Positions 6,969-58,471 of a DNA stretch of 64,000 nt are shown in pieces (positions within the stretch are counted from its first letter, which is position 1; each line of letters begins with the position of its first letter). The notes under the pieces are model-generated. The model had not been told where the DNA came from, searched no databases, and saw only the letters and a list, made by a program, of their open reading frames with translations. The DNA comes from Alpinimonas psychrophila (GTDB taxonomy: Bacteria; Actinomycetota; Actinomycetes; Actinomycetales; Microbacteriaceae), in NCBI RefSeq assembly GCF_014137865.1, contig NZ_JACGWU010000006.1, forward strand, positions 1 to 64,000, read 5' to 3'. Both the position numbers and the translations under genes were made by a program.

Positions 6969-8288
6969 TTAGTTGTGAAACTCTTGGATGCGGATGTCCG
7001 CGGTGGCTTGGTGAGCGCTCATCCCTTCAAATTCAGAGATCGAGGAGACGTAGGGCGCAACCAGCGGTGTCGCTGCCTTAGTGAGTCGCTGGTACGTCAG
7101 TGGTTTGAGGAATCGTGCGACCGAGAGTCCTGCGGAAGACTTGGCCCCGCGCCCGGTGGGGAGGACATGGTTGGTGCCCGTCGATCCCTTGTCGGCATAG
7201 GCCACGGTCGACCACTTTCCAAGGAAGAGGGAACCGTAGTTGGTGAGGTTGTCGAAGTAGTAATCGTCTTCCTTCGTCAAAATCTCAAGGTGCTCGGGGG
7301 CCATCATGTTCATGAGCTCCACGGCCGTTTCACGCGAACCAGCAACGTAAATCGTACCAAAATCACGCCATGCCGGTCCCGCGATGTGTTTCGTGGACAA
7401 GCCCTCAAGCTGTCGCTCGATCTCTGTGAGCACGCTGGCCGCAAGTTCCGCCGATGTCGTAACAAGGCTGGCCGGCGAGAGGGGTCCGTGCTCGGCTTGG
7501 CCCAGGAGGTCCGCGGCTACCGTCACGGGATCAGCAGTTTCGTCGGCAATCACGGCAACTTCGGAGGGGCCCGCAAGCAAGTCAATGCCCACCCGACCAA
7601 AGAGCTGGCGCTTCGCTTCGGTAACGTACGCGTTTCCGGCACCCACCAGGATGTCTACGGGCTGCTCGCCCAGGAGTCCGAAGGCCATGGCTGCGAGCGC
7701 CTGAACGCCGCCGACAGCAAAAGCGTGGTCAACGCCCGAGAGATACGCGGAGTAGAGAACGGCAGGGTGACCGGCCGTGGGTGTCATGGGAGGCGTGCAG
7801 GCGATTGTGGTTCCGACGCCGGCAGCCTTTGCGACACCCACCGTCATGAAGGCACTGGCCAGAATAGGAAAGTTGCCGGCGGGAAGGTAGGCGCCCACGC
7901 GCGAAACGGGAATGTACTTCTGTCCCATCACAACGCCTGGGGTGAATTCTTTTTCAAAATCGACGAGATGGCTGCGCTGCTCGAGAGCGAATGCACGGGT
8001 GCGCTCGGCGCTCGCTTCGAGGGCTTCTCTCAGAAGAGGTGGCAAGTCGTCGCCTGTCTTGGCGAGGTCACTCTGAGACACCTCGATCTCTTTGCCTGCC
8101 CAGTGATCGAGCTTCTGGGAATAGTTGATGACGGCGTCGATGCCGCCGGCCTCAATCGTCGACAGCATCTCGGATACTGTCTCAATTACCTGCGGCAGAC
8201 GTTGAGCCGGAACGCCGCCCACGCCGGGTGCCTTGAGTACGTGGAATGACCCAGAAATGAACTTTTTATCGACGTCGTTTATTTGCAT
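6969..8288 (-). CDS. HisD-family NAD-dependent alcohol dehydrogenase
   Basis: A 439-residue protein of the histidinol-dehydrogenase family: GPSEVAVIADETADPVTVAA, the zinc-binding QAEHGPLSP, and NHVLPTGRGAKSSAGLSV. Family members oxidise a primary alcohol to a carboxylate in two NAD-linked steps. Besides biosynthetic HisD, the family includes catabolic relatives such as the sulfopropanediol dehydrogenase HpsN. No other his gene is nearby. It is the first gene of an operon with an amino-acid-type importer, divergent from a LysR activator, so a catabolic role on an imported amino alcohol or sulfonated/polyol-like compound is more likely. The substrate is unknown. Confidence 0.8.
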   Translation of the reverse strand: MQINDVDKKFISGSFHVLKAPGVGGVPAQRLPQVIETVSEMLSTIEAGGIDAVINYSQKLDHWAGKEIEVSQSDLAKTGDDLPPLLREALEASAERTRAFALEQRSHLVDFEKEFTPGVVMGQKYIPVSRVGAYLPAGNFPILASAFMTVGVAKAAGVGTTIACTPPMTPTAGHPAVLYSAYLSGVDHAFAVGGVQALAAMAFGLLGEQPVDILVGAGNAYVTEAKRQLFGRVGIDLLAGPSEVAVIADETADPVTVAADLLGQAEHGPLSPASLVTTSAELAASVLTEIERQLEGLSTKHIAGPAWRDFGTIYVAGSRETAVELMNMMAPEHLEILTKEDDYYFDNLTNYGSLFLGKWSTVAYADKGSTGTNHVLPTGRGAKSSAGLSVARFLKPLTYQRLTKAATPLVAPYVSSISEFEGMSAHQATADIRIQEFHN

Positions 8289-8363: not shown

Positions 8364-9281
8364 ACAATTGCACAGTTGCGCGCCTTTCTAGCCGCCATGG
8401 AATTGGGGACATTCACGGCCGCAGCCGAGAAACTAGAGACCAGCCAGGCGTCCATTTCGGAGCTCATCGCCCGGCTTGAGGACATCCTGGGAACACCGTT
8501 ATTTACTCGCGGTGGCAGGAAACTTGTGCCCACACGAGCAGCTCTTGAACTCCGCCCCCATGCTCATGATGCCCTGGCCGCGTTAGAGGATGGCATGGAA
8601 TCTGTGCGCGCCATGGGCTCTTTGCACGGCGGCGTTTCGACGTTTGGAGTCATGCGAAATGCGGGATATTACGACCTTGCCGATTTGGCACAAACGTTTC
8701 ACGCCCGTTACCCAAAAGTTAAAATCAGACTCGTAGGGCTCAATTCTGGCTTTGTGGCCGAATCCATAGCCGCGGGCGAGATCGAATGTGGGCTTGTTAT
8801 CTTGCCCGTGGCGGTCGAGGGTCTCGAGATCGAACCCCTCTTCAAAGACGAAGTCTTCTACGTTTCGACGACGCGACCGCGAAGTGCGGGCGACGTCACG
8901 ATTGAAGAAATGTCTCAGGCGAACCTCATTCTCTATGACGCCCACACTGGCTGGAAGGACCCGACGCGCAAACAGATTCTCGACCGTGCCAAACTAGCCG
9001 GCGTTGTCATCGACCCTGCCATCGAGGTTGAGCACGTGGAAACGGCCATCAGTTTGGTTGCCTCGGGTGCTGGCGACTCGCTCGTCAGCCGGTCCATTAT
9101 TGATACCCCGAGCTTTCCCCTCAATGTGCGCACCTTTAAGTTCGCCCCGCCTCTCTATGACACCATCGCGCTCGCCCAGCGAACCGACAGCATCATTTCG
9201 CCTGCGACGAAAAAGTTCGCGGAACTCGCGGCCAACAAACTTCTGAAGTATCAGAAGGCGCGCAACCTGATGGGCGGCTAA
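8361..9281 (+). CDS. LysR-family transcriptional regulator
   Basis: A 306-residue LysR protein. The winged helix-turn-helix lies at residues 1-60 (AQLRAFLAAMELGTFTAAAE and QASISELIARLEDILGTPLF). The periplasmic-binding-like effector domain follows from about residue 90. It is divergent from the HisD/ABC operon and most likely activates it in response to the imported substrate. Its start codon lies within one of the inverted repeats. Its last codons overlap the convergent aldolase-dehydrogenase gene by 4 bp. Confidence 0.92.
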   Translation: MTIAQLRAFLAAMELGTFTAAAEKLETSQASISELIARLEDILGTPLFTRGGRKLVPTRAALELRPHAHDALAALEDGMESVRAMGSLHGGVSTFGVMRNAGYYDLADLAQTFHARYPKVKIRLVGLNSGFVAESIAAGEIECGLVILPVAVEGLEIEPLFKDEVFYVSTTRPRSAGDVTIEEMSQANLILYDAHTGWKDPTRKQILDRAKLAGVVIDPAIEVEHVETAISLVASGAGDSLVSRSIIDTPSFPLNVRTFKFAPPLYDTIALAQRTDSIISPATKKFAELAANKLLKYQKARNLMGG

Positions 9282-24336: not shown

Positions 24337-25152
24337 TCACAGCGCGGGACTGGGTGACCATCTCGTGACGGCGAGATATCCGAATGCCGGCGGGAACGCG
24401 CATTTAGAAATGTAGGCGGGTACGCCTGCCAGATGTGCCGTTTGCGTGAGGACAAGCAGAGGATCGCTTGCTTTAATCCCCAATTGGCCCGCACGCGTTG
24501 GCCCCGCAACGGATGCCGCAATTCTGCACTCACCGGAGGTGAAAATTGGCCCGAGGCGATTGGTCAAGGCATGCAACAGTGTCGCGTCTTCTTCGGCCGC
24601 ATCCCGCAAGTTTTTCGATACCTCCGCATCAAGCTTCGCCAAATAGATCTCGTCCGGGAGGTACTCCTGAACGAGAGCGATTGGTTGGCCGTCACGCGTG
24701 GCGATTGATTCTCGGAACCAGAAGTCAGCCTGCGGTTCGAGGGCAAGAAGCTCGACAACGATGTCGGTGACCGTCTGCAGAGTGAACTCGACTGGGACAA
24801 CAGCCAAGGCCTTCGTTGGGCTCTGGAGGAGCCGTTCTATTGACTGGAGTTCGTCGAGCATTGCGTGAGACGCAGAATCGGCAACGAACCGCCCAACGCC
24901 TCGTTTGGTGCTGATAAGCCCATCTTCTTCGAGAAGCATCAATGCCTCTCGCACAACGGTCCGGCTCACCCCGAGGGCGAGGGCGAGCTCCGTTTCGCGG
25001 GGCAGAAGTGAGCCCGCCACAAAGTTGCCCGACCTAATGCCTTGGGAGATGCGAGAGTAAACCGCTACCCGCAAAGGCTGGCCAGGAGGGGTCAGGAGCG
25101 GCTCCGATAGGTAGCGCGCAGAATCCAAAATTGTCATGGATTCCTGCTGCAC
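24337..25152 (-). CDS. GntR/HutC-family regulator with UTRA domain
   Basis: A 271-residue regulator. The winged helix (GSLLPRETELALALGVSRTV, about residues 46-70) is followed by a UTRA ligand-binding domain that ends in the usual strand VPAYISKCAFPPAFGYLAV. The start may be the second Met (MTILDSARYL). It lies 77 nt downstream of the dehydratase gene on the same strand and convergent with the nucleoside genes. It could be the last gene of the sugar operon or a separate regulator of the nucleoside cluster. Confidence 0.85.
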   Translation of the reverse strand: MQQESMTILDSARYLSEPLLTPPGQPLRVAVYSRISQGIRSGNFVAGSLLPRETELALALGVSRTVVREALMLLEEDGLISTKRGVGRFVADSASHAMLDELQSIERLLQSPTKALAVVPVEFTLQTVTDIVVELLALEPQADFWFRESIATRDGQPIALVQEYLPDEIYLAKLDAEVSKNLRDAAEEDATLLHALTNRLGPIFTSGECRIAASVAGPTRAGQLGIKASDPLLVLTQTAHLAGVPAYISKCAFPPAFGYLAVTRWSPSPAL

Positions 25153-25229: not shown

Positions 25230-26948
25230 CTACGACCGGCCTACCACTGGCTCCACGAAAACCAGCTTCTCCGGGGTGGGCGCCTGGAGGAAGTCAAAGT
25301 CGCAGCCTTCGGGGGCCTGCGTCACGTGCTTCTCGTAGAGTGCTGGCCAGCCGCGAAGGTGCGCTGAGACCGGGCGGACCCAGGCCGCGCGTCGCGTCGT
25401 GAACTCTTCTGGCGAAATCAGCAGATCCAGCGATCCGGATTCAATGTTGACCGCAATGAGGTCACCGTCACGAACAAACGCTATTGGCCCACCCACCGCA
25501 GCCTCCGGGGCGACATGAAGGAATACGGTGCCAAAGGATGTGCCGCTCATGCGCGAATCAGAAACGCGTACCATGTCGGTAACGCCGGCCGCCGCTAATT
25601 TCGCGGGGATAGGGATCATCCCCCACTCCGGCATTCCGGGAACACCCACCGGACCGCACCCCTTGAGCACGAGTACGGTTTCGGCGGTGACGTTCAGCTC
25701 GGGGTCGTCAATGCGCGCGCGCATGTCGTCATAGTTGTCGAATACGAGCGCGGGGCCTGTGTGCGTAAACAGTGATGCTGTTGCAGCGGATGTTTTGATG
25801 ACGGCGCCATCCGGAGCCAGCGAGCCCGAGACAACAGAGAAGGACCCGTTGGCAAAAAGTGGATTCGTAACGGTGCGAATGGCCGTTCCACGCTCCCCGG
25901 CATTGGCGATGATGTCGCGCAACGTCAACCCTGAGACGGATGCCTCATCCAAATTCAGATGTTCGTTGAGTTCACGAGCCAAGACGGGCAAACCGCCGGC
26001 CTCATGAAAATCATGAATGAGCATGGTCCCTGATGGTTCAACATCAGCCAAGACAGGAACGCCCTCCCCCAGTTGGCTCATGCGCACCAACCCTAGCTTC
26101 AGGCCGAGGCGTCCGGCAATGGCAGGGAGGTGAATGACGGCGTTGGTGGAACCACCGATGGCGTGTAGAACGGTCACGGCATTCTCAAAGGCCTTGAGCG
26201 TCATGATGTCGCGCGGGCGAATATCCTGACGAACGAGTTCCACGGCTCGGACTCCCGCCGCGTGAGCCTCACGCAGTGACTCCTCCGAACCCGATGGGCT
26301 CGTGGATGCTCCGGGAAGGGCCATGCCCAAGGCCTCGGTCATGAGAGCCATTGTCGAGGCGGTTCCCATGGTGTTGCAGGCGCCAACGCCGCAGGACAAA
26401 CATGCTTCAAATTCTGCCCAACCGGATTCCGTGAGTCGACCAGCTCGTCGATCTTCCCAGGCCCGCCACAGGTCTGTTCCCGTCCCAATCTTCTTTCCGC
26501 GAAACACGGATACGGGACGGGCCCCGCCGAGGACTGCGATCGCGGGCAGGTTCGCACTGGCCGCTCCCATGAGCGTTGCGGGAACCGTCTTGTCGCAGTT
26601 GGCGAGAAGCACAATCCCGTCGAGAGGATTAGACCGAAGCATTTCTTCGATCTCCATGGCGAGAAGATTTCGATAAAGAAAGGCACTTGGCTTCATGAGG
26701 TCTTCACCGAGCGACATGGTGGGGAATCGGACAGGCAAACCGCCCGCGGACAAAATTCCCGCGTGCGCGGCATCCGCCAGTTTTCGCAAGGGTAAGTTGC
26801 ACGGGTTGAGCTCGCTCGAGGAGTCAGCGATGCCGATGACAGGCCTTTCGTCACCCGGCTCGATTGTGAGCCCCACGCTTCGAAGCGCAACGCGGTGGGC
26901 GACAGAAACTTCATCGTCACCGGCTAACCATTTCTGGCTTCTCAACAT
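25230..26948 (-). CDS. IlvD/Edd-family sugar-acid dehydratase
   Basis: A 572-residue Fe-S dehydratase. Cluster cysteines are seen in [18 protein letters not shown] and [24 protein letters not shown] and [17 protein letters not shown] are further family motifs. Members include dihydroxy-acid, xylonate, arabinonate and phosphogluconate dehydratases, which convert a polyhydroxy acid to the 2-keto-3-deoxy acid. No branched-chain amino-acid genes are present. The neighbours are a lactonase, sugar dehydrogenase and semialdehyde dehydrogenase, so an aldonate is the likely substrate. It follows the U32-like gene after 45 nt. Confidence 0.9.
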
Positions 26949-26993: not shown

Positions 26994-27917
26994 TCAGCCT
27001 AGTTCGGGCACGCCAAGGCCAAGAGCCCCCGCCGGAGATTGGATGAGCTCGATTTCGCTGCGCTTGATCCACTCGAGAGCAAGCGAGGCTCGGCGCACTT
27101 TTTCACGCCCCAGTAGGGATGCATAGTCGAGGTTGTGCATGCCAGCTGGGTAAATCGGAGTGCTGTTTCGAAGCCCAAACTTTGTGTACATCGGAGCGGC
27201 AATCGCAATCAACTCCGCGCTTTCATGACCTCGAACCACGCCACCCATGGCATCCGGAGCTTCCACATAGACATCGATGGGAAGGGAGGAGACTGCTCGA
27301 AGTTCAGCGATGAGTTCGGGCGTCAGGTCCGAGGGGACGTTCACCGTGGAGGCCCCCATCCGTTCCATCTGACGCATGGCGATGGGATTTGATGGCGCGA
27401 GCATGGCCGAGATCTTCCATACGGTGCTGGCCGGAAGGTCGCCAGCCTTCTGCATCCCTACGAGGACTTCCAGAAGACCGAGATCGGCGATGAGGAATCC
27501 GCGAATTCCATGCTCAGTGGCGCGCAAGACATCTTCAACGCCGTAGCGAAGTTGACGGGTTCCGCGCAATTGACCCGCCAATGCAGGGCCGTCGGCGGCC
27601 CGAGACTGAACACCAATGTCCCAGCCTTCACGAGGGCCAACGAACAGGGAAATCTCAATCCCGTTGTCGGATGCCATGAGAGCCATCTCATCGAGTTCCT
27701 TCTCGGTGATGAGCATTGAACCGCTGCCCTGAGACACGCGGTTAACGACGACACCGCGCTCCTTGGCTTCGGCAAGGACATGCCGTAAAATTGTGGGGTT
27801 CTCCACCGACGGGATTTCAATCCGGTAGTGCGCGCCGTCAGGAAAACGTTCTTCACTGGGGGCTACTGCGCTCACGGGCGCCAGTCCCAGGTCTGTCAAG
27901 AAGCGATCAGCTTTCAT
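26994..27917 (-). CDS. U32-peptidase-like TIM-barrel protein, possible lyase
   Basis: A 307-residue soluble protein I recognise as the U32-peptidase-like type found in sugar operons. It opens with a conserved N-terminal IEIPSVENPTILRHVLAEA, then RVSQGSGSML, SLFVGPREGWDIG and a C-terminal PIYPAGMHNLDYA. Repeating beta-alpha units indicate a TIM barrel. No proteolytic function has evidence here. It is the first gene of the dehydratase operon and shares its promoter region with the semialdehyde dehydrogenase. It could serve the unassigned 2-keto-3-deoxy-acid dehydratase or aldolase step, but this is a guess from context. Confidence 0.7.
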   Translation of the reverse strand: MKADRFLTDLGLAPVSAVAPSEERFPDGAHYRIEIPSVENPTILRHVLAEAKERGVVVNRVSQGSGSMLITEKELDEMALMASDNGIEISLFVGPREGWDIGVQSRAADGPALAGQLRGTRQLRYGVEDVLRATEHGIRGFLIADLGLLEVLVGMQKAGDLPASTVWKISAMLAPSNPIAMRQMERMGASTVNVPSDLTPELIAELRAVSSLPIDVYVEAPDAMGGVVRGHESAELIAIAAPMYTKFGLRNSTPIYPAGMHNLDYASLLGREKVRRASLALEWIKRSEIELIQSPAGALGLGVPELG

Positions 27918-27958
27918 GGAAGTCCTCCTATCGATATTGCATCGGATGCCGTAGACTG

Positions 27959-27982
27959 TTCGGTATTACCGAATCATGTTCT
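27959..27982. promoter_or_regulatory. IclR-type operator, divergent promoter 1
   Basis: A perfect 15-bp palindrome TTCGGTA-T-TACCGAA (27959-27973) is followed by TCA and TGTTCT. The string ATTACCGAA-N3-TGTTCT (27965-27982) recurs exactly at 34913-34930 in the other divergent promoter of the same pathway. The nearest suitable regulator is the IclR gene at 36.3 kb. The site lies between the U32/dehydratase operon and the semialdehyde dehydrogenase gene. Confidence 0.7.
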
Positions 27983-28082
27983 ACTATACCAAACTTTACG
28001 GACCGGATGCTTGCGATGTCAACCACGTTCTTGAGCGTCACATGCTTGTCCAATCCTTCATCTTCAGAAAGAGCGACTCCTT

Positions 28083-29615
28083 ATGTCTGCACCAGAAGCA
28101 CACGTCTCCACCACGACCGATGTTGTTGCGCTAGAAGTTGACGTCATTGCTCGGATTGCGGCTGGTGCCGCTTCTGCCTGGGCTGGCCTTGAACCGGCCC
28201 GCAGAGCTGGTGCTCTCGTTGCGGCCGCAGATGCACTGCAACTGTCTCGGGACGAGCTCGTTGCCATTGCCATGACAGAAACCGGGCTTTCTGAAGCAAG
28301 GCTCAACGGCGAACTGACGCGAACGGCCGTTCAGCTGAAGCTCTTCGCTGAGACCATCGTGGATGGCACGTATCTTGATGTGCGCTTGGATGCCGCCGAT
28401 CCTGAGTTTGTCTTGGGGCCGCGACCTGATGTCCGTCGCTATCTCCTCGCTCTCGGTCCCGTCGTCAACTTTGCCGCCAGCAACTTTCCGTTTGCCTTCT
28501 CCGTGGCTGGCGGAGATACCGCCGCAGCGCTCGCCGCCGGGTGTCCCGTGATTGTGAAGGCCCACTCGGGGCATCCGAAACTCTCCGTGCGCACGGGAGA
28601 AATTGTGGCGGCGGCTCTCGAAGGGGCGGGGGCTCCTCACGGAACGCTTCAGGTCATTTCCGGTCAGGCCCACGGCGTAGCAATGCTCCAACACTCCCTC
28701 ATCAGGGCGGGAAGTTTTACGGGCTCGATCCGGGTTGGCACTTATCTCGCCCAGGTTGCCGCGGCACGGTCCGTTCCCATCCCTTTCTTTGGGGAACTGG
28801 GAAGCGTCAATCCTGTGTTTGTCACGGCCGGAGCCCTGGCCGAACGAAACGACGCCATCGCCGACGGTTTTGTCACCAGCGTTTCTGGGTCCGCGGGGCA
28901 GTTGTGCACCAAACCAGGCTTCCTCTTCGTCCCCGCTTCCGCCTCCGAGGCCCTGCAGGCTCGCATTGCTCAGGCCACCACTGGACTTTCGGAGCACCGA
29001 CTCTTGAACCCAGGAATTGCGTCGGGGTATCGCGAACGTCGCGAAACAATTCTGGCAACCCCCGGCGTGACAACAATTACACAAGGCTCCCTTCGCATCG
29101 ATGAAAATGGCCAAGGATGGGCGACGCCAACCATTGCTCGCGTCTCCGTCGCCGATCTTCTGGCTGCAAAAGTGCAGCTAAGTGAAGAAGCGTTTGGGCC
29201 CCTCGCAATCGTGGTGGAGTATGAAAATGAAAGCCTGCCCGAGGTTGCGGAAGCCCTCTTCGAGGGAAACCTTACGGGGACAATTCATTCAGCCGCGGGG
29301 GAAGACACGACAGCCCTTCGTTCGCTTATCGAGTGGCTCACAGAGAACGTTGGCCGCGTGCTCTTCGACGGTTGGCCCACCGGCGTGGCCGTCACCCCCG
29401 CAATGCAACATGGAGGACCGTGGCCCGCAACGACAAATGACTCCAGCACCTCCGTCGGAACGGCCGCAATCGGACGTTTCCTTCGCCCGGTGGCATTCCA
29501 GAATGCGCCACAGGCTCTGCTTCCGGCCGCGCTCACAGACGCCAACCCGTGGCTCGTTCCTCAGCGTCGCAGTCCCGCCGGAGAGTCGGCGTCGTGGGGA
29601 GATCTGAACGGCTAA
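28083..29615 (+). CDS. NADP-type aldehyde dehydrogenase (2-ketoglutarate semialdehyde class)
   Basis: A 510-residue aldehyde dehydrogenase of the class that oxidises 2-oxoglutarate semialdehyde in oxidative pentose and sugar-acid pathways. Catalytic Glu is in FFGELGSVNP (about residue 238) and catalytic Cys in SGSAGQLCTKPG (about 274). The cofactor region VVNFAASNFPFAFSVAGGDT is characteristic of this class. Its promoter region carries the IclR-type palindrome and faces the dehydratase operon. Its stop codon overlaps that of the convergent lactonase gene. It probably makes 2-oxoglutarate or another dicarboxylate as the pathway's final step. Confidence 0.87.
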   Translation: MSAPEAHVSTTTDVVALEVDVIARIAAGAASAWAGLEPARRAGALVAAADALQLSRDELVAIAMTETGLSEARLNGELTRTAVQLKLFAETIVDGTYLDVRLDAADPEFVLGPRPDVRRYLLALGPVVNFAASNFPFAFSVAGGDTAAALAAGCPVIVKAHSGHPKLSVRTGEIVAAALEGAGAPHGTLQVISGQAHGVAMLQHSLIRAGSFTGSIRVGTYLAQVAAARSVPIPFFGELGSVNPVFVTAGALAERNDAIADGFVTSVSGSAGQLCTKPGFLFVPASASEALQARIAQATTGLSEHRLLNPGIASGYRERRETILATPGVTTITQGSLRIDENGQGWATPTIARVSVADLLAAKVQLSEEAFGPLAIVVEYENESLPEVAEALFEGNLTGTIHSAAGEDTTALRSLIEWLTENVGRVLFDGWPTGVAVTPAMQHGGPWPATTNDSSTSVGTAAIGRFLRPVAFQNAPQALLPAALTDANPWLVPQRRSPAGESASWGDLNG

Positions 29616-30496
29616 CCGCGGAAGCGGTAGGCCGCGGTCCCTCGCACTCCAACGTTGGCGGAGAAAAGATCTCCGGCGTTCGGTTCCGTTGCGCGCGCCT
29701 CCGGGGTCATGCCTTCCCACGCCGACGTCACATACAGACGGTCCAACGAGGATGACCCGAAACTGGCGCATGTGGGCTGACTCACCGGTAGCGTCATCTG
29801 ACGAAGCGCCTGACCCCCCGGGCTGATTCGCTTGATAGCGGAGCCACCCCACATGGCCAACCACACGGCACCCTCGGCGTCAATCGTGAGTCCGTCAGGG
29901 GTTCCCTGTGATTGCGGGAAATCGATGAGGTTGGCACGCCGTGGTCCGATTTTTCCCGTGTCACAGTCGTAGCCGTACTGTCGAATTGACTGCTCACCGG
30001 AGTCAACGAAGTAAAGCGTTTCCCCGTCCAAAGACCAGGCAAGGCCGTTGGATTCGAGGAGCCCCTGGAGGATCACGTCAATGTGACCATCGGCATGCAG
30101 CTGGATGAGCTCCCCCGTGCTGTCGCCCGTCTGAGAAACAATCCCCGCGAGGAAGCGGCCTGCGGGGTCACATGCCGCATCGTTAAAGCGCATACCGTCA
30201 CCGACAGGCGCCGCCACTGGGTCACGATCACTCACGCCGCGGGCATCCCTAAAGACAAAGTTTCGGTCTACGGCAGCGACGAGACCGCCGTCGCGGCGCA
30301 GGCCAACCGCGCCCAGAGCCTCCCCCAGCCGTTCCCCTGATTCCAGCCCGTGCATGTCAAGACGCCGTACCGTGCCACCGAAGACATCAACCCACGTGAT
30401 GCTCTCCGTCGTCTCGTCCCAGAGCGGATGTTCCCCCAGCTCACACCCGGCAGCGACCTCCACGTGCCACTCAACGGGCGAAACGGCGTCGGTCAC
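29612..30496 (-). CDS. SMP-30/gluconolactonase-family lactonase
   Basis: A 294-residue six-bladed beta-propeller of the SMP-30 family. The metal-site signatures are GCELGEHPLWDE near the N-terminus (Glu ligand), NDAACDPAGRFLAGI, and ESNGLAWSLDGETLYFVDS (Asn and Asp ligands). These enzymes open sugar lactones to aldonates. The ATG overlaps the permease stop (ATGA), placing it in the transporter operon. It links the dehydrogenase at 35.1 kb to the IlvD-type dehydratase. Confidence 0.9.
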   Translation of the reverse strand: MTDAVSPVEWHVEVAAGCELGEHPLWDETTESITWVDVFGGTVRRLDMHGLESGERLGEALGAVGLRRDGGLVAAVDRNFVFRDARGVSDRDPVAAPVGDGMRFNDAACDPAGRFLAGIVSQTGDSTGELIQLHADGHIDVILQGLLESNGLAWSLDGETLYFVDSGEQSIRQYGYDCDTGKIGPRRANLIDFPQSQGTPDGLTIDAEGAVWLAMWGGSAIKRISPGGQALRQMTLPVSQPTCASFGSSSLDRLYVTSAWEGMTPEARATEPNAGDLFSANVGVRGTAAYRFRG

Positions 30497-31374
30497 TTCC
30501 CCATTCCGGCCGTCAGGCCAGAAACCAACTGCCGCTGGAAAACGAGGTACACGATGATCGCAGGGATCGCACTCAGCAAAGAGCCCGCCATCAAAACAGG
30601 AATATCTGTGACGCGCCCGGTCGCCAACACTCCGAGGCCCACCGTGACCGTTCGAAGGTCGGTGTTTTGCAAAAACAGCAAACCGATAAGGAGGTCACCC
30701 CAAATTTGGATGAACTGCAGGACGATAACTGTGACGACTGCTGGGATTGACAGGGGCAAAGCGATACGGAGGAAAACGCGCCAGTAACCCAATCCATCGA
30801 TGACGGCAGCTTCAATGAGTTCATCGGGAATGCCCCGATAAAAAGCCGTCATCAGAAAAGTCGCGAAGGGCGTACCCAAGGCCGCGTAGATCAGTACGGC
30901 GCCGGTGTAGGAGTTCAGCATGTTGAACTGTGCCAGGTTAACGTAGGCGGGAATGATGATCGACTGCATGGGAATCAGCATCGCTGAAATGATGAGCAGA
31001 AAGACGAGCGTCGCTCGGCGATACCGAAGTTTGGCAAAGGCAAAACCTGCGGTAGTACTCACGGAAACAATGATGATGAGGGCAAGCACACAAACAATGG
31101 TGGAGTTTGCCAGTTGTTGCCCGACAGGCAAAATATCGAAGAGCTTGGCCCAGCTATCGAAGGAATACCCCTCCATGCCGCGAAATTGAGCGTTGCTCTT
31201 GAACGAGGCATCAATCATGAACCAAAAAGGGTAGAACATGATGAAAGCCCCCGCAGCCATCACCACAAAGAGAATCACTCGCCGAGGAGAAACTTTCTTT
31301 TTCGCCACCACTTTGCCGGCCGAACGGGTCGACCGAATGGAGGCGAGTCTTTCGGTAATTGTGGGAATGGGCAC
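30493..31374 (-). CDS. Sugar ABC transporter permease (MalG family)
   Basis: A 293-residue permease with six helices and the EAA ATPase-docking loop (ELIEAAVIDGLGYWRVFLRI) near residue 200. The GTG start at 31374 is chosen for the GGAGG seven bases upstream. A longer open frame would run into the partner permease. It pairs with the MalF-type protein encoded one base upstream. No ATPase gene is linked. Actinobacterial sugar importers of this class often share one MsiK-type ATPase encoded elsewhere. Confidence 0.92.
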   Translation of the reverse strand: MPIPTITERLASIRSTRSAGKVVAKKKVSPRRVILFVVMAAGAFIMFYPFWFMIDASFKSNAQFRGMEGYSFDSWAKLFDILPVGQQLANSTIVCVLALIIIVSVSTTAGFAFAKLRYRRATLVFLLIISAMLIPMQSIIIPAYVNLAQFNMLNSYTGAVLIYAALGTPFATFLMTAFYRGIPDELIEAAVIDGLGYWRVFLRIALPLSIPAVVTVIVLQFIQIWGDLLIGLLFLQNTDLRTVTVGLGVLATGRVTDIPVLMAGSLLSAIPAIIVYLVFQRQLVSGLTAGMGK

Positions 31375-31375
31375 G

Positions 31376-32278
31376 TTAGTCCTCCGAACGAAGAAGCTTG
31401 AGTTGAAGGATGCCAATGACGCCCATGATGATGAACAGCACGACGCCAAGAAGTGCGCCGGTGCCGAAGGCGCCGCGAGCGAATGCCGTCTGGTAGACGA
31501 AGAATTCTAGCGTCGTCGTTCCGTAACCCGGGCCGCCTCCCGTCATAACGAAAATAAGGCTGAAGAGCGCTGTGAAGGCGGTAATCATCGACATGATGAA
31601 GGCAAACTGGATGAAAGGCTTGAGCTGAGGCATCGTGATCGAGAAGAAAACCCGAAGCGGGCCAGCACCATCCATTCGTGCCGCCTCATGGAGACTCGGA
31701 TCGAGGGTGGCCATTCCCGTCAGGAAGATGATGGTGTTGGTGCCCACCATGGACCACACGAACGTCACGGCCACAGCGAAGAGTGCCGTGTCTTCATGCG
31801 CCAGAAAATCTGTCTGAATAGCGGCCAATCCAATGTTGGCAAAGATTCCGTTGAGGAGGCCTTCCTGCGCAAAGAAGCGTGCGGAGACCATGCCGATGAC
31901 GACCCACGAAATTGCCGTTGGGAGAAAGTAGATGACGCGAAAGAGCTTCCAACCGAAGACATGTTCGTGGAGCACGGCAGCAATCCCCATGGGAATCACA
32001 ATCGCAAACGGTACCGACAGCAGAAGAAGGCCATTGTTGAGGAGCACTCGCCAGAACGTTGGATTGAGAAAAAGATTGATATACGTTTCAGGCCCCACCC
32101 AGGTCGTGGTGAGTCCGTCCCACTTCGTCATGGAGTAATAGACGGCCTGAATAATGGGGATGCCCAGCAGCAAAACAACGAGCAGAAAAGCCGGGAGGCT
32201 GAGAATGATGCCCATCCGGCGGCGGCTATCGCTCAGTCGCGGTGTCCTGCTCCGCTGAAGGGTAAAAATGTTTGTCAT
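31376..32278 (-). CDS. Sugar ABC transporter permease (MalF family)
   Basis: A 300-residue permease with six helices and the docking loop HEAARMDGAGPLRVFFSITM near residue 205. It is the partner of the MalG-type protein, and together they form the channel for the sugar bound by the family-1 lipoprotein. ATG 32278 begins MTNIFTLQRS. A TTG eight codons upstream is a weaker alternative. It follows the binding-protein gene after about 100 nt. Confidence 0.92.
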   Translation of the reverse strand: MTNIFTLQRSRTPRLSDSRRRMGIILSLPAFLLVVLLLGIPIIQAVYYSMTKWDGLTTTWVGPETYINLFLNPTFWRVLLNNGLLLLSVPFAIVIPMGIAAVLHEHVFGWKLFRVIYFLPTAISWVVIGMVSARFFAQEGLLNGIFANIGLAAIQTDFLAHEDTALFAVAVTFVWSMVGTNTIIFLTGMATLDPSLHEAARMDGAGPLRVFFSITMPQLKPFIQFAFIMSMITAFTALFSLIFVMTGGGPGYGTTTLEFFVYQTAFARGAFGTGALLGVVLFIIMGVIGILQLKLLRSED

Positions 32279-32376
32279 CTGAAGAAATCTTTCTTGGTCC
32301 AAGTGGATCGTTGGGCCAGCGGAGCGAGAATTTCCACCCTACTGGCCCAACGAGGACTGCAGCTTTCGAGCCGTGC

Positions 32377-33660
32377 TTACTTCTTTTGCTCGGCGGGCAG
32401 TTGGTTCCACGCTTGCGCCATTTGCGCGAGCGCATCCTTGGGTGTCATGTTTCCACCCAAGACCGATGGGAGGACCTTGCCGCCGACATCGACAACATCA
32501 CCCTGGATGACGTTATCAATCATGGGGTACCTCGTGAAGCCGAACTGTCCAGCGAAGTCGAGCATCTCCTGGTTGACAGGGTTGGACGTCTTTGCACCAT
32601 TGACGGAGGAAATCAGGCCAGACTCGTCCATGATTTTGACAGCGGCATCCGTGGTGAGGAACGCGAGGAAGTCTGCCGCTGCTTGCTGATGCGTCGAGCT
32701 CTTCATGATTCCAAAACCGTTACCAGGGAATTCAACAACGCCCTTGATGGAGGTGTCGGAGAAGGGCGGAACGAAGGCGGCTACATCGGTACCCATGGCA
32801 TCGGTAAACAGTGCCGTATCCCACGTGCCATCGATGATCATGGCAGCTTTACCTGACGTGAAGTCCTCGAGGTTGTCGGTCTTCGTGAGAACGTCGGAGT
32901 TGGTGCACCCGTTTGTCTTCATTGCAGCCCACTTGGTGAGCTGATCGATGTTCTTTTGAGAGTCCCACGCGACTGTGCCGTTCAAGAGGTTCGCCCATTC
33001 ATCGACCGTGTAGGCACCGATCATGGCATAGCTGGCGTCATACCACGTGTAGAACGTAGCTCCCAGAGTTTGTCCGCCGTTGCCGTAAACCACGGGGGTG
33101 ATTCCGGCCGCATTCAGCTTGTCACAGGCCGCATAGAGTTCGCTCCAGTTGGTCGGCACGCTCGAAATGCCTGCTGCCGCAAAAGCTTTTTTGCTGTAGA
33201 AGCCCATGTAGAACTGCTTCTCGAAGGGCATGACATAGGGGCCATTTGCCGAGTCGAAGCCGTCGGCCACGTAATCCAAGCCGTCGACTTTGGCGAGGTC
33301 CGCTGCGGGAACAAGGCCATCAAGATTCACAAGAAGATCTTTGTACTTCAGGGTGAAGAGCCCGGTCCACATGACGGCAAGGTCCGGCCCCGTCTTGGAA
33401 ATTGCACTCGCCTGGATCAACGAGAAGTAGTTGTCTCCTGGCTGGCTCACAACATCGAAGGTGACGTTGGGGTGAAGCTTCGTATACGCATCCGTTAGAT
33501 TCTGCGTTGCAATCGCGTTTTGCTGAGTACCGAAGTTATGCCAGAGAGTGAGCTTGACCGGATCAGTATCCGACGTTCCGGAACTAGAGGCCCCACCGGC
33601 ACAGCCCGCCAGCGCGAGAACAGTGACCGCGAGAGCCGCGAATAATGGTAGCTTTCTCAT
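32377..33660 (-). CDS. Family-1 sugar-binding lipoprotein
   Basis: A 427-residue extracellular solute-binding protein. The lipoprotein signal is AALAVTVLALAGCAGG (Cys19). The mature domain opens with KLTLWHNFGTQQ, typical of family-1 sugar-binding proteins, and includes VMWTGLFTLKYKDLLV. It captures the mono- or oligosaccharide or sugar acid that feeds the oxidative pathway. It follows the M24-like gene after 83 nt in the same operon. Confidence 0.92.
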   Translation of the reverse strand: MRKLPLFAALAVTVLALAGCAGGASSSGTSDTDPVKLTLWHNFGTQQNAIATQNLTDAYTKLHPNVTFDVVSQPGDNYFSLIQASAISKTGPDLAVMWTGLFTLKYKDLLVNLDGLVPAADLAKVDGLDYVADGFDSANGPYVMPFEKQFYMGFYSKKAFAAAGISSVPTNWSELYAACDKLNAAGITPVVYGNGGQTLGATFYTWYDASYAMIGAYTVDEWANLLNGTVAWDSQKNIDQLTKWAAMKTNGCTNSDVLTKTDNLEDFTSGKAAMIIDGTWDTALFTDAMGTDVAAFVPPFSDTSIKGVVEFPGNGFGIMKSSTHQQAAADFLAFLTTDAAVKIMDESGLISSVNGAKTSNPVNQEMLDFAGQFGFTRYPMIDNVIQGDVVDVGGKVLPSVLGGNMTPKDALAQMAQAWNQLPAEQKK

Positions 33661-33743
33661 TTCTTCCTCCTGTGTTGAATGCGCTGCCTCGTGGCTGCGG
33701 CTTGGTGTGAACGTCGCGGGTTGCGACGAAATTTATGCCCCTG

Positions 33744-34895
33744 TTAGAGCATCAAAATATCCGGTCGTAAAAATTGAGTTTCCGGCACCAATGTCGTCGG
33801 CCAGCCGGGAGCAGAAGTGATCCATTCGTGGGCGCCGTTCTTACCGACGATGTAGGTATCTTCGTCTTTGCCGCCACCGGCCACACTTGGATTCCATGCG
33901 ACCGCATTTCCCGGGGAAATCGGTTCCTGCCACCAGCGACTGTCAGTTTGCACCGGCGAAATTTCAAACTCTCGCTGAGCGTAGCCAATGGGCCCACCCT
34001 GGTAATGTTCCCGCCACGCACCGGAGTGCCCCTCGGCGGCATACGCCTCATCGATAGCCTCCAGGACCGATCCATAGGTGCTGCCGGAGAGATGCGCCGA
34101 CAAGGTCTTGACATGAATTCTTTTCGCAGCCGCGAGCCCCTCGAGCAATGACTCCGCTGGCTTTCCAGCCGAGGCGTATCGGGTCAATGCGACATGGAGT
34201 CCTGAGCGCCGCGCAACGAGTACGGCCATAACTAGTCGGTTTGCGCTAGCCCCCCGCGCGATCGGGTGTCGAAACTTCGCTATCCGGTCGTCAGCTCCGA
34301 CGAGGAGGACCGGGCAGTCCGCACCCACCAACTCCATAGCTGCCGAGATTCTGGCCTGAATCTGAAAATCCGTCTCGCCCGGTGTCCAGGCCTTCAGCAC
34401 CTCTTGGACGGCGGCGGTTGCGTCGCGCCCCAAACTGCGAAGCTCGTCGGTCTCAGCGGAACACAGACTCATTCGCGCCGAGATGATGTCGTCCGAAATA
34501 TCAAGCCCAAATCCAGGATGTCCATCCGAGCCAATTTTGTGGAGATCCACGTCTCCGGCAACGCCAAGAGCAAGGGCACTCGCATTGACCATCGCTACGG
34601 CATCCCACCACGGAACCCCCACCACGTCGATGCCGAAAAGCTCGGGTTGCATCTCTGCGATGAGGCGCGGAGCTTCAATCTGCGTCGTGACAATGACACA
34701 ACGACTCGCGCTGATGCACACCCACACAAGGTCTGTGGCGGCGGTGCGGTCGATCGGTGGATTCATGCCCCCGGTGACCCACGCCACGGCTCCTGGCGTT
34801 GTGAGCACAACATTTTCGATGCCCTTTTTCTCCTGAAGTCGCCGAACAGCAACGAGCGCGTGCGAGATTCGCTCCGCCCTGAGGTGATCGCCCAT
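33744..34895 (-). CDS. M24 (prolidase/creatinase-fold) protein lacking metal aspartates
   Basis: A 383-residue protein with the creatinase/aminopeptidase-P two-domain plan. The N-terminal domain has NVVLTTPGAVAWVTGG and the pita-bread domain starts near residue 150. The strand that normally carries two metal Asp residues reads RLVMAVLVARRSGLHVALTRY, with neither Asp. HYQGGPIGY and GGGKDEDTYIVG retain a His and a Glu region. It is therefore probably not a standard metallopeptidase. It may be a metal-free creatinase-like hydrolase or a binding protein. It is the first gene of the transporter/lactonase operon, downstream of the second IclR-type site. Confidence 0.75.
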   Translation of the reverse strand: MGDHLRAERISHALVAVRRLQEKKGIENVVLTTPGAVAWVTGGMNPPIDRTAATDLVWVCISASRCVIVTTQIEAPRLIAEMQPELFGIDVVGVPWWDAVAMVNASALALGVAGDVDLHKIGSDGHPGFGLDISDDIISARMSLCSAETDELRSLGRDATAAVQEVLKAWTPGETDFQIQARISAAMELVGADCPVLLVGADDRIAKFRHPIARGASANRLVMAVLVARRSGLHVALTRYASAGKPAESLLEGLAAAKRIHVKTLSAHLSGSTYGSVLEAIDEAYAAEGHSGAWREHYQGGPIGYAQREFEISPVQTDSRWWQEPISPGNAVAWNPSVAGGGKDEDTYIVGKNGAHEWITSAPGWPTTLVPETQFLRPDILML

Positions 34896-34906
34896 GATTC
34901 TCCGTG

Positions 34907-34930
34907 TTCTGCATTACCGAACATTGTTCT
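34907..34930. promoter_or_regulatory. IclR-type operator, divergent promoter 2
   Basis: ATTACCGAA-CAT-TGTTCT (34913-34930) repeats the motif at 27965-27982, differing only in the three spacer bases. It contains a perfect palindrome GAACA-T-TGTTC (34919-34929). It lies 18 bp upstream of the M24-like gene, in the gap shared with the zinc dehydrogenase gene. This suggests one regulator coordinates both divergent promoters. Confidence 0.7.
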
Positions 34931-35120
34931 GTTCTGTGGTAGACAGAGTGTTGCATGCTCCCACGGGAGTGTCAAGGATGATCGACCCGACACGCACTGA
35001 AGAAACACAACCGTTACGTTGACCCCCGAGTTCTTAGGTCAACCCCACTAATGTGTGAGGAACTGCTTCGATCGGGTCGGGCACCTCGGGACCCTCGCCC
35101 AGATGAATGGAAGGCACACT

Positions 35121-36212
35121 ATGCCGAACCCGGCCTTGCTCAACACAGCCCCAGCGGTCCGTCCAAGGAACATTCGTGCTGTCGTCGTAACGTCACCGGA
35201 AGAAGTGGCACTGGGCACGCGCATTGCTCCTGACTGCGGCACCAATGACGTGCTCATTCGCCCGGTCGTCGTGGGCATTTGCGGAACTGACCTCGACATC
35301 ATCGACGGCAGTATCGATCCCGAGTTTGTTCGCTACCCCGTCACCCTCGGTCACGAATGGAGCGGGGTTGTCGTCGAGGCGCCGGCCCCTGGTGCGGGAA
35401 CTAGCCACCTTTCAGCAGGAGACAGGGTTGTCGTCGAGGGCATCGTGCCCTGTGGTCACTGCGCCCCGTGCAAAGCCGGCGACACCAACCGTTGTGAAAA
35501 CTACGACGAGTTTGGTTTCACCCGCCACGGGGCGATGGCGGAATTACTCGCAGCCCCACGGCATCTCGTTCACCGACTGGATCGCGGAGTCTCGATGGAA
35601 TCTGGCGCGCTCGTTGAGCCTGCCGCCGTGGTTATTCGAGGCTTATTGAGAGCATCACCCCAACCCGGAGAGCGAATCCTCATTATTGGTGATGGCACTG
35701 TGGCCCTTCTCGCGGCCACGATCATTCAGCTGTGGTCCCCCGGACACGTCACGATGCTGGGGCGCCGATCTGAACAAGCGGCGTTGGCAGCCACGGCAGG
35801 GGTTGATTCTTTTGAGACGGATCCCGAACGCATCTCGCAAGATTTTGATGTCGTCGTCGAAGCTGCCGGAGCTGCCGATGCCGTCACGACTGCTGTGGCA
35901 TCAGCCAACCGCGGTGGACGCATTGTGTTGCTGGGGTTCCCTGGTCACGGCGTGACTGTCCCCTTACCGATCGATGACATTGTGAACGGCGACCTCACGA
36001 TGGCGGGAAGCTTCGGCTACACCTCATCAGCATGGGCGCATGTTGTGGCCCTGCTCAACGCTGGGCGTCTCGACTTCACCTTTCTCGTGACACATCGCTA
36101 TCCCCTGGCGAAATTCGCTGAGGCCATCAGCGCCCTTCGGCATTCGACGGGGCAACGAGGCAAGGTAATTCTGGATATCTCGTCAGAAGATGGTGCAACA
36201 TTGTTGGGGTGA
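35121..36212 (+). CDS. Zinc-dependent medium-chain (sugar) alcohol dehydrogenase
   Basis: A 363-residue MDR dehydrogenase. Catalytic zinc residues are in GICGTDLD and TLGHEWSG. The four structural-zinc cysteines are in PCGHCAPCKAGDTNRCENY. The Rossmann fold starts at ILIIGDGTVALLAA. The sorbitol/threonine dehydrogenase-like pattern suits oxidation of a sugar at C1 or a secondary alcohol. ATG 35121 has GGAAGG six bases upstream, so earlier in-frame ATGs are less likely. As the only dehydrogenase of the regulon it probably makes the lactone or ketose entering the pathway. Confidence 0.88.
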   Translation: MPNPALLNTAPAVRPRNIRAVVVTSPEEVALGTRIAPDCGTNDVLIRPVVVGICGTDLDIIDGSIDPEFVRYPVTLGHEWSGVVVEAPAPGAGTSHLSAGDRVVVEGIVPCGHCAPCKAGDTNRCENYDEFGFTRHGAMAELLAAPRHLVHRLDRGVSMESGALVEPAAVVIRGLLRASPQPGERILIIGDGTVALLAATIIQLWSPGHVTMLGRRSEQAALAATAGVDSFETDPERISQDFDVVVEAAGAADAVTTAVASANRGGRIVLLGFPGHGVTVPLPIDDIVNGDLTMAGSFGYTSSAWAHVVALLNAGRLDFTFLVTHRYPLAKFAEAISALRHSTGQRGKVILDISSEDGATLLG

Positions 36213-36299: not shown

Positions 36300-37109
36300 A
36301 TGGGCTCTTCCGCGGCGACACCCGAAACGCCCCCAGAAGCGACGTTGGGCAAATACACGGTGCAGAGCGTTTCTCGTGCTCTGGATATCTTGGACATGAT
36401 TGCAAACGTTCGGTCTGGCCTCTCCCTCACAGAGATCACAAAAGGATCCGGGCTCTCCAAAAGTGCCTCTTACTCGCTCATTCGAACCCTTGTTGACCGC
36501 GGATACTTGCAAGAGGTCACCGACGGCCCTCGCTACAAGCTTGGAATGAGCCTGGTTCGAATGGGAGAAATTGCCCTCGATCAAATGCCGCTTGCTGATC
36601 TCGCACGCCAAGTACTCGTTCACCTTTCCGATGAGCTGGCGATGACAAGCCGTGTCGCCATTGCGGAGGATGGACAACCCGTGTTTATCGACCGCGTCGA
36701 TGGCCCCGGTACAGTTCGTTTTCATACGCCCCTCGGTAAAAAGGAACATCCGTACGCCACGTCCGCAGGAAAAGCCATTCTTTCCTGCTTGCCTGACGAA
36801 CAGGTCATCGCTATTTGCGCCCGAACCGGCATGATTGCCAAGACTTCCCACACCATTACGACGCCCGAAAAACTCCTCGAAGATCTGGCACTCGCGCGTG
36901 AGCGCGGATTCGCGATCGAGAATGAGGAAGATGCTCTCGGAGTGGTGTGCGTTGGAGCTCCGTTCTTCAACCACAATGGCATCGTTGCTGGCGCCATCAG
37001 CGTCACCTTTATGAAATTGGACCTTCAGACGGAACAGTTTCTCGAAACCGGGCGAATCGTTCGGGAGCACGCCGATCAGCTTTCGAAATCCCTCGGCTTC
37101 TCAGGCTAA
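36300..37109 (+). CDS. IclR-family regulator of the sugar pathway
   Basis: A 269-residue IclR protein. The winged helix is at residues 18-80 (VQSVSRALDILDMI and SLTEITKGSGLSKSASYSLI). The effector domain follows, with HPYATSAGKAILSCLPDEQ and a C-terminal GAPFFNHNGIVAGAISV. It follows the dehydrogenase gene on the same strand after 87 nt. It is the best candidate to bind the ATTACCGAA-N3-TGTTCT sites upstream of the two divergent promoters. Whether it represses or activates is unknown. Confidence 0.9.
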   Translation: MGSSAATPETPPEATLGKYTVQSVSRALDILDMIANVRSGLSLTEITKGSGLSKSASYSLIRTLVDRGYLQEVTDGPRYKLGMSLVRMGEIALDQMPLADLARQVLVHLSDELAMTSRVAIAEDGQPVFIDRVDGPGTVRFHTPLGKKEHPYATSAGKAILSCLPDEQVIAICARTGMIAKTSHTITTPEKLLEDLALARERGFAIENEEDALGVVCVGAPFFNHNGIVAGAISVTFMKLDLQTEQFLETGRIVREHADQLSKSLGFSG

Positions 37110-57676: not shown

Positions 57677-58471
57677 ATGAACGAACAATCGAACCCCACC
57701 CTGCGCTCGGTGTCGAACGCGCTTGAGATTCTGCACCTCCTTCGGGCTCGAGGCCCCATGCGAATAACTGAAATCGCTGCCCAGATGAGAATCGGCCTCT
57801 CAACCGCGCACAGACTGGTGGCGACACTGCGGGAGCAGCGATTTGTGCGACAGGAACCAGACGGGAAACGCTACGAATTGGGTTCGGCCATGCTTTTCTC
57901 TACCGAGGTTTCGGCACTTCAGCACTGTGTCTCGGTGAGCGCTCGGGTGATGGAACGCCTGCGGGGCCGGAGCAATGAGACCGTTCACCTTTCGGTGCTT
58001 CGTGGCGATCGCTGCCTTTTTGCCGCCTCCGTAGAGTCGGAGCAGATGGTTCGGGTTTCGAGTCGGGTGGGCCAAGGCCCATACGCGCATACAGCAGCGG
58101 GGGGCAAGATTTTGCTCGCCGCACTTAGCCATGAACGACTTCTCGAGTTGTTGCCGAATGAGCAGTTGCCCACACCCACCGATCACTCGATTGCCTTACG
58201 GTCAGAGTTACTCACCGAACTCGATCAGGCAAAAACTCTCGGGTACGCCCGAAACATCAGTGAGTCCGAAGCGGGGATGTTCGCCATCGCGGTCCCCATA
58301 CGCAGGCCCGAAGGTGAGGTCATCAGTAGCCTGACGATTGCCGCCCCGCTCTCTCGCGTGGAGGGCACCGGATCTGGAAAGCTGAGTAACTCCCTCACTC
58401 CCTACGAACATGAGCTTGTCACTGCCTTGAAAGAGGCTGCCGCGGAAATAGAGTCACTCCTCGCATTCTGA
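57677..58471 (+). CDS. IclR-family regulator of aromatic island
   Basis: A 264-residue IclR protein. The N-terminal winged helix is at residues 8-70 (LRSVSNALEILHLLRARGPM and MRIGLSTAHRLVATLREQRF). The effector domain includes VGQGPYAHTAAGGKILLAAL and AGMFAIAVPIRRPEGEVIS. Many aromatic-catabolic operons use IclR activators or repressors. It is divergent from the broken FAD oxidase and upstream of the cupin gene, so it may have controlled the former and may now control the latter. Confidence 0.88.
   Translation: MNEQSNPTLRSVSNALEILHLLRARGPMRITEIAAQMRIGLSTAHRLVATLREQRFVRQEPDGKRYELGSAMLFSTEVSALQHCVSVSARVMERLRGRSNETVHLSVLRGDRCLFAASVESEQMVRVSSRVGQGPYAHTAAGGKILLAALSHERLLELLPNEQLPTPTDHSIALRSELLTELDQAKTLGYARNISESEAGMFAIAVPIRRPEGEVISSLTIAAPLSRVEGTGSGKLSNSLTPYEHELVTALKEAAAEIESLLAF

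Follow-up and report, generated by a model that had tools for sequence, protein, structure and literature searches.

Do two divergent promoter gaps of one putative sugar-acid catabolic cluster, some 7 kb apart, answer to a single regulator? The question arises in a 64,000-nucleotide stretch of Alpinimonas psychrophila DNA (Microbacteriaceae; contig NZ_JACGWU010000006.1, positions 1 to 64,000; this whole stretch is referred to as the window), where the initial annotation had noted a gapped motif, ATTACCGAA-N3-TGTTCT, in both gaps and had proposed that one protein, most likely the IclR-family regulator encoded at 36.3 kb, coordinates the genes on either side. Comparison of the window with its own genome and with related loci indicates that both sites are very probably operators of this IclR protein (gene 36300-37109), each organized as a predicted array of three half-sites, with the two operons that run leftward from the sites as the favored targets.

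Two copies of a three-box site

The gapped motif has two exact matches in the 2.24-Mb assembly, 27965-27982 and 34913-34930 (reversed control, 0); both copies lie without a mismatch where they had been annotated, within divergent gaps (165 and 225 bp long), and the motif is accordingly not common genome-wide. The longer 24-bp core GTTCNGNATTACCGAANNNTGTTC is likewise confined to these two places when up to three mismatches are allowed over the whole assembly, with no match for its reversed control, and TTCGGTATTACCGAA with at most two mismatches finds the two sites and none besides; at up to three mismatches, the latter search descends to background level (22 forward and 20 reverse matches; reversed control, 20 and 21). 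Two promoter gaps could in principle share letters by chance, and the gapped 15-base identity taken alone is modestly significant, as a match of at least 15/18 arose in 13 of 1500 Markov-simulated pairs of both gaps, a figure that must also be read against the larger number of gap pairs in the window. However, the extended core is identical at 21 of 26 positions between the gaps, an agreement over 26 bp that none of the 1500 simulations reached, and the footprints in relatives described below stand far above permuted controls. Coincidence is therefore an exceedingly improbable explanation, even though the 15/18 match by itself would be weak evidence against it.

Each site resolves into a 30-bp array of three 10-bp half-sites whose direction alternates (Table 1), and the sequence TTC-N9-GAA-N5-TTC, the fixed spacing of three alternating half-sites, is present in both operators. 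The palindromes reported in the initial annotation both exist, TTCGGTATTACCGAA at 27959-27973 and GAACATTGTTC at 34919-34929, but they are built from different pairs of half-sites: the perfect pair consists of boxes 1-2 in operator 1 and of boxes 2-3 in operator 2, which is why the two sites had appeared to hold unlike palindromes. The palindrome centers are positioned at 27966 in operator 1 and 34914 in operator 2.

This anatomy appears to fit a published IclR-family architecture, and the sites would then belong to an ordinary gene-control circuit. In the passages of Suvorova and Gelfand (2021; PMC8222616) that treat operator structure, 32 of the 181 IclR orthologous groups are credited with three-box sites, tandem centers are separated by 18-22 bp, the distance from a site center to the downstream start codon peaks near 22 bp and is mostly 20-80 bp, and regulons with GTT-11-AAC motifs often include sugar-acid genes. 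The window's operators resemble the three-box sites of those passages in that alternating half-sites appear to join a group 1 pair to a group 2 pair, and their position agrees as well. They differ from the subgroup described there in the half-site, which is GTTCGGT here and GTTYCRY there, so that one symmetric base pair is changed. Compared by hand with the group 1 consensus GTTYCRYW3RYGRAAC across boxes 1-2, the ideal sequence GTTCGGTATTACCGAAC agrees at 15/17 positions, and box 1 of operator 2 agrees less. The operators of PcaU, PobR and HmgR, as described in the same passages, similarly add to an inverted repeat one external half-site in direct orientation, which PcaU needs for binding; unlike the present cluster, however, they serve aromatic pathways, and the PcaU palindrome is GTTCG-N5-CGMAC rather than GTTCG-N7-CGAAC. 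Our literature search found no publication naming this IclR group. Because the full-strength pair of boxes differs between the operators, one IclR might dock in two alternative dimer arrangements, so that the import and dehydratase operons would respond in a graded or an opposite manner, and a 6.9-kb DNA loop might join the sites; we regard this elaboration as unlikely.

Footprints upstream of related iclR genes

With some 15 iclR genes in the genome (two of them split in two, giving 17 matches), assigning a regulator required footprinting. An alignment of four IclR proteins (A2), used to scan genome contigs, supplied relatives of the 36.3-kb protein (n = 59). Footprint, third-box and motif counts refer to all 59 loci, one listing covering 52 of them (without L134 and L136-L141, where L numbers designate loci), and synteny was tallied by eye, which gives lower bounds with many contigs ending inside the cluster. 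The 15-bp palindrome consensus is matched at 12 or more of its 15 positions in 23 of the 59 iclR upstream regions (-300 to +20) and at 13 or more in 19, whereas 256 permuted palindromes gave means of 0.41 and 0.035 at these thresholds (maxima of 13, reached by TTTGGCATTGCCAAA, and 2) and a control stretch inside the iclR gene gave none at 12 (0/59). When the search extends to 400 bp, 24 of the 59 relatives carry a site of at least 12, including 13 of the 20 loci in which a homolog of the zinc-type alcohol/sugar dehydrogenase (ADH) follows iclR. The site thus recurs upstream of related iclR genes and often in the same gene cluster, a U32-like gene being found in 17 and an M24 gene in 11 of the 59 loci.

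The third box recurs in relatives at the same distance from the palindrome. Exactly five bases past the latter, on either flank, TTC is present in 10 of the 24 best sites and TTY in 13, while at other offsets from 0 to 20 TTC reaches at most 2 and TTY at most 3; by inspection, L095, L097, L102, L106 and L113 seem to extend into a fourth box, giving tandem palindromes 20 bp apart. The gapped motif of the initial annotation is itself matched at 12 or more of 15 positions in 17 of the relatives and at 13 or more in 6, as compared to means of 0.35 and 0 for 150 shuffled motifs (maxima 4 and 0). It is exact in L086 at 7756-7773, between a binding-protein gene and iclR. In L035, from the window's own family, ATTACCGAACACCGTTC ends 12 bases before an iclR ATG and agrees with the motif at 13/15 positions (counted by hand); a longer reading of this iclR from a GTG would place it inside the gene.

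Two more distant relatives, from other genera and with 33-36% identity to the IclR protein, carry the palindrome upstream of iclR, exactly TTCGGTATTACCGAA in L037 and with one mismatch in L038. Of the window's 17 queried proteins, IclR alone matched L038, and IclR together with the two permeases (26-28%) matched L037. The occurrence of the palindrome before iclR amid other genes suggests that the site follows the regulator and not the pathway. In these loci it lies near 9053 (L037) and 6084 (L038), ahead of iclR, with a divergent ABC transporter cluster on the other side that includes a family 3 binding protein and a protein of the alanine-racemase/D-serine-dehydratase type; perhaps this is a second regulon sharing the same site code.

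Several observations weigh against a single IclR acting at both gaps. The relatives were collected by IclR sequence and form neither a random nor a fully independent sample, and 35 of the 59 have no site of at least 12 within 400 bp of iclR. The siteless loci include Microbacteriaceae that keep the iclR-ADH-dehydratase arrangement (Mycetocola L093, L094 and L096, and Leifsonia L101), and L036, which is of the same family and retains most of the cluster, reaches at best 10/15 in a palindromic-site scan of its 19 kb. Ahead of iclR in L035, good conservation is limited to boxes 2-3, sites occur only about 1190 bp upstream of iclR in L108 and L110, and in L128 and L133 they occur only elsewhere in the locus. 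Presence of the site requires 12 changes on the IclR tree, not one, although shuffled labels required 20.8 on average and none of 500 was that low. Finally, the scan of the second gap yielded no promoter-like match.

Alternative regulators

With about 15 iclR genes in the genome, a different IclR protein could occupy the sites, for example the product of the second IclR-family gene in the window, near 57.9 kb (about 57926-58387, forward strand), and half-sites across the family resemble one another in the relevant passages of PMC8222616. This is nevertheless unlikely, as in several lineages the site precedes genes related to the 36.3-kb iclR, and the assembly has it at no other place. Among 23 loci of less related IclR proteins of the family (L010-L032), none reaches 13 and two reach 12, so that at the lower threshold the site is enriched at the closer relatives without being exclusive to them. 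The recognition helix points weakly in the same direction: the window's IclR reads SKS there, as do 22 of the 24 relatives with a site (AKS in the remaining pair), whereas none of the four other iclR genes of the genome that are readable at this helix has SKS and one has HKS. Because SKS also occurs in many siteless relatives, and L037 and L038 have SKG, this argument carries little weight.

A second candidate is the GntR/UTRA regulator, whose gene lies directly downstream of the dehydratase (Table 1). Operator 1 contains GGTATTACC, and its GGT-N3-ACC resembles the operators of FadR-type GntR proteins. The GGT half is missing from operator 2, however, and GGT-N3-ACC is thus not common to the two sites. 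No GntR homolog (E<=1e-12) was found in 63 relative loci, examined over stretches of 3-21 kb from which a more distant gene would escape, whereas the site lies near iclR in 23 of 59; the 63 loci comprise the 59 relatives and L033-L036, among which L093 and L096 recur. Eight relatives of the GntR protein itself have no site of at least 12 at their loci (0/8), and in four of the eight (L143-L146) the gene sits beside homologs of the MFS, BMP or PNP genes of the neighboring nucleoside cluster. Given this lack of linkage and the company kept by its own relatives, GntR is a very unlikely binder, and the IclR protein at 36.3 kb remains by far the better candidate for both gaps. It passes the curated cut-offs of PF09339 (50.8 bits; cut-off 22) and PF01614 (121.8 bits; cut-off 24), and falls below the cut-off of all eight named IclR models of NCBIfam (BhcR, IclR, PcaR/PcaU/PobR, KdgR, AllR), the best being BhcR at 168.6 versus 350 bits.

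Genes at the operators and a proposed circuit

The operators separate four predicted transcription units (Table 1). Leftward from operator 2 run the genes for the M24 protein, a solute-binding protein, two permeases and a lactonase, and rightward ADH and iclR; leftward from operator 1 run the U32-like gene and the IlvD/EDD dehydratase gene, and rightward that of an aldehyde dehydrogenase.

Table 1. Features of the window at and around the two predicted operators (positions in the 64,000-nucleotide stretch)
Feature	Coordinates	Strand	Remarks
Predicted three-box IclR-type operator 1	27957..27986	+	TGTTCGGTAT, TACCGAATCA (inverted), TGTTCTACTA; perfect palindrome in boxes 1-2, 27959-27973
Predicted three-box IclR-type operator 2	34905..34934	+	TGTTCTGCAT, TACCGAACAT (inverted), TGTTCTGTTC; perfect palindrome in boxes 2-3, 34919-34929
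IclR-family regulator	36300..37109	+	Likeliest binder of both operators (predicted)
GntR/UTRA regulator	24337..25152	-	GntR and UTRA domains; 77 bp downstream of dehydratase gene
IlvD/EDD-family dehydratase	25230..26948	-	Above cut-off of subfamily model NF004784, dihydroxy-acid dehydratase
U32-like TIM-barrel protein	26994..27917	-	First gene, preceding dehydratase; start codon 49 bp from operator 1 palindrome center
Promoter-like match TTGACA-18-TAAAGT	27993..28022	-	Toward U32-like gene; six bases from operator 1; consensus match only
Aldehyde dehydrogenase	28083..29615	+	Divergent from U32-like gene; start codon 117 bp from operator 1 center
SMP-30/gluconolactonase-type lactonase	29612..30496	-	Final gene of leftward import operon
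Two ABC permeases (BPD_transp_1)	30493..32302	-	
Solute-binding protein (SBP_bac_1)	32377..33660	-	
Peptidase M24-family protein	33744..34895	-	Start codon 19 bp from operator 2 center
Zinc-type alcohol/sugar dehydrogenase (ADH)	35121..36212	+	Divergent from M24; ATG 207 bp from operator 2 center; longer reading from GTG at 35055

The positions of the sites suggest repression of the two leftward operons, which are favored for direct control since the centers of most IclR-family sites fall 20-80 bp ahead of the start codon. For the aldehyde dehydrogenase and ADH-iclR, with start codons at distances of 117 and 207 bp, control is plausible though less sure. The proposal that the 36.3-kb IclR serves both gaps is supported by the footprints and the gene clusters. 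The first gap contains one promoter-like match as compared to a mean of 0.2 in shuffles; it reads leftward from 28022 to 27993, and its closeness to operator 1 weakly suggests that the operator would cover the likely transcription start. Promoter and terminator scans of both gaps returned nothing beyond this match. Upstream of ADH-iclR, an inverted repeat GTTGACC-N12-GGTCAAC (35018-35043) is the sole exact copy in the assembly; with up to two mismatches its counts are near those of the control (11 + 11 versus 9 + 9), and we make no claim for it as a regulatory element.

In the circuit that we propose, one IclR dimer would bind each 30-bp unit, or two dimers (a tetramer) would also use the third box. 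When substrate is absent, IclR bound at its two operators, 19 bp from the M24 start codon and 49 bp from that of the U32-like gene, would repress both leftward operons, namely import and lactonase (M24, solute-binding protein, permeases, lactonase) and U32-like/dehydratase. A pathway intermediate would trigger its release, the probable candidate being a 2-keto-3-deoxy sugar acid that the dehydratase produces. Co-control probably extends to the divergent genes for the aldehyde dehydrogenase and ADH-iclR, in which case iclR would be autoregulated. XynR of E. coli is a member of the IclR family. In the passages of PMC13279387 that describe it, XynR represses a sugar-acid operon and responds to 2-keto-3-deoxy-D-xylonate, the product of a dehydratase; it comes from a different phylum and acts on a different operon, and serves only as an analogy for the effector. 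Curated models did not name the substrate sugar: the dehydratase passes a subfamily cut-off and no equivalog, the lactonase matches a remote model only, and the aldehyde dehydrogenase and ADH pass no curated-model cut-off. PADLOC returned no match.

Two members of the cluster stand out. The U32-like protein matches no NCBIfam model, its Pfam match stays below threshold, and it is 55-66% identical in 15 relatives whose genes are located beside related iclR genes. Its predicted structure (mean pLDDT 82.7) gives only broad TIM-barrel matches (TM about 0.4-0.5), among which the U32 peptidase Mk0906 ranks highest, followed by class II aldolases; this comparison played no part in the regulatory claim. 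The protein is perhaps the pathway's missing aldolase or a second dehydratase. The M24-family protein, which is unusual for a sugar pathway, recurs in the sugar cluster of the relatives (11 of 59 loci, as above).

A predicted regulator and a small regulon would thereby be assigned to an uncharacterized sugar-acid catabolic cluster that distant bacteria share, and a U32-like protein without a named family would be tied to the sugar-acid pathway. For the IclR family, the two operators may offer a natural pair of sites on which the proposed alternative dimerization of IclR proteins at three-box operators can be tested.

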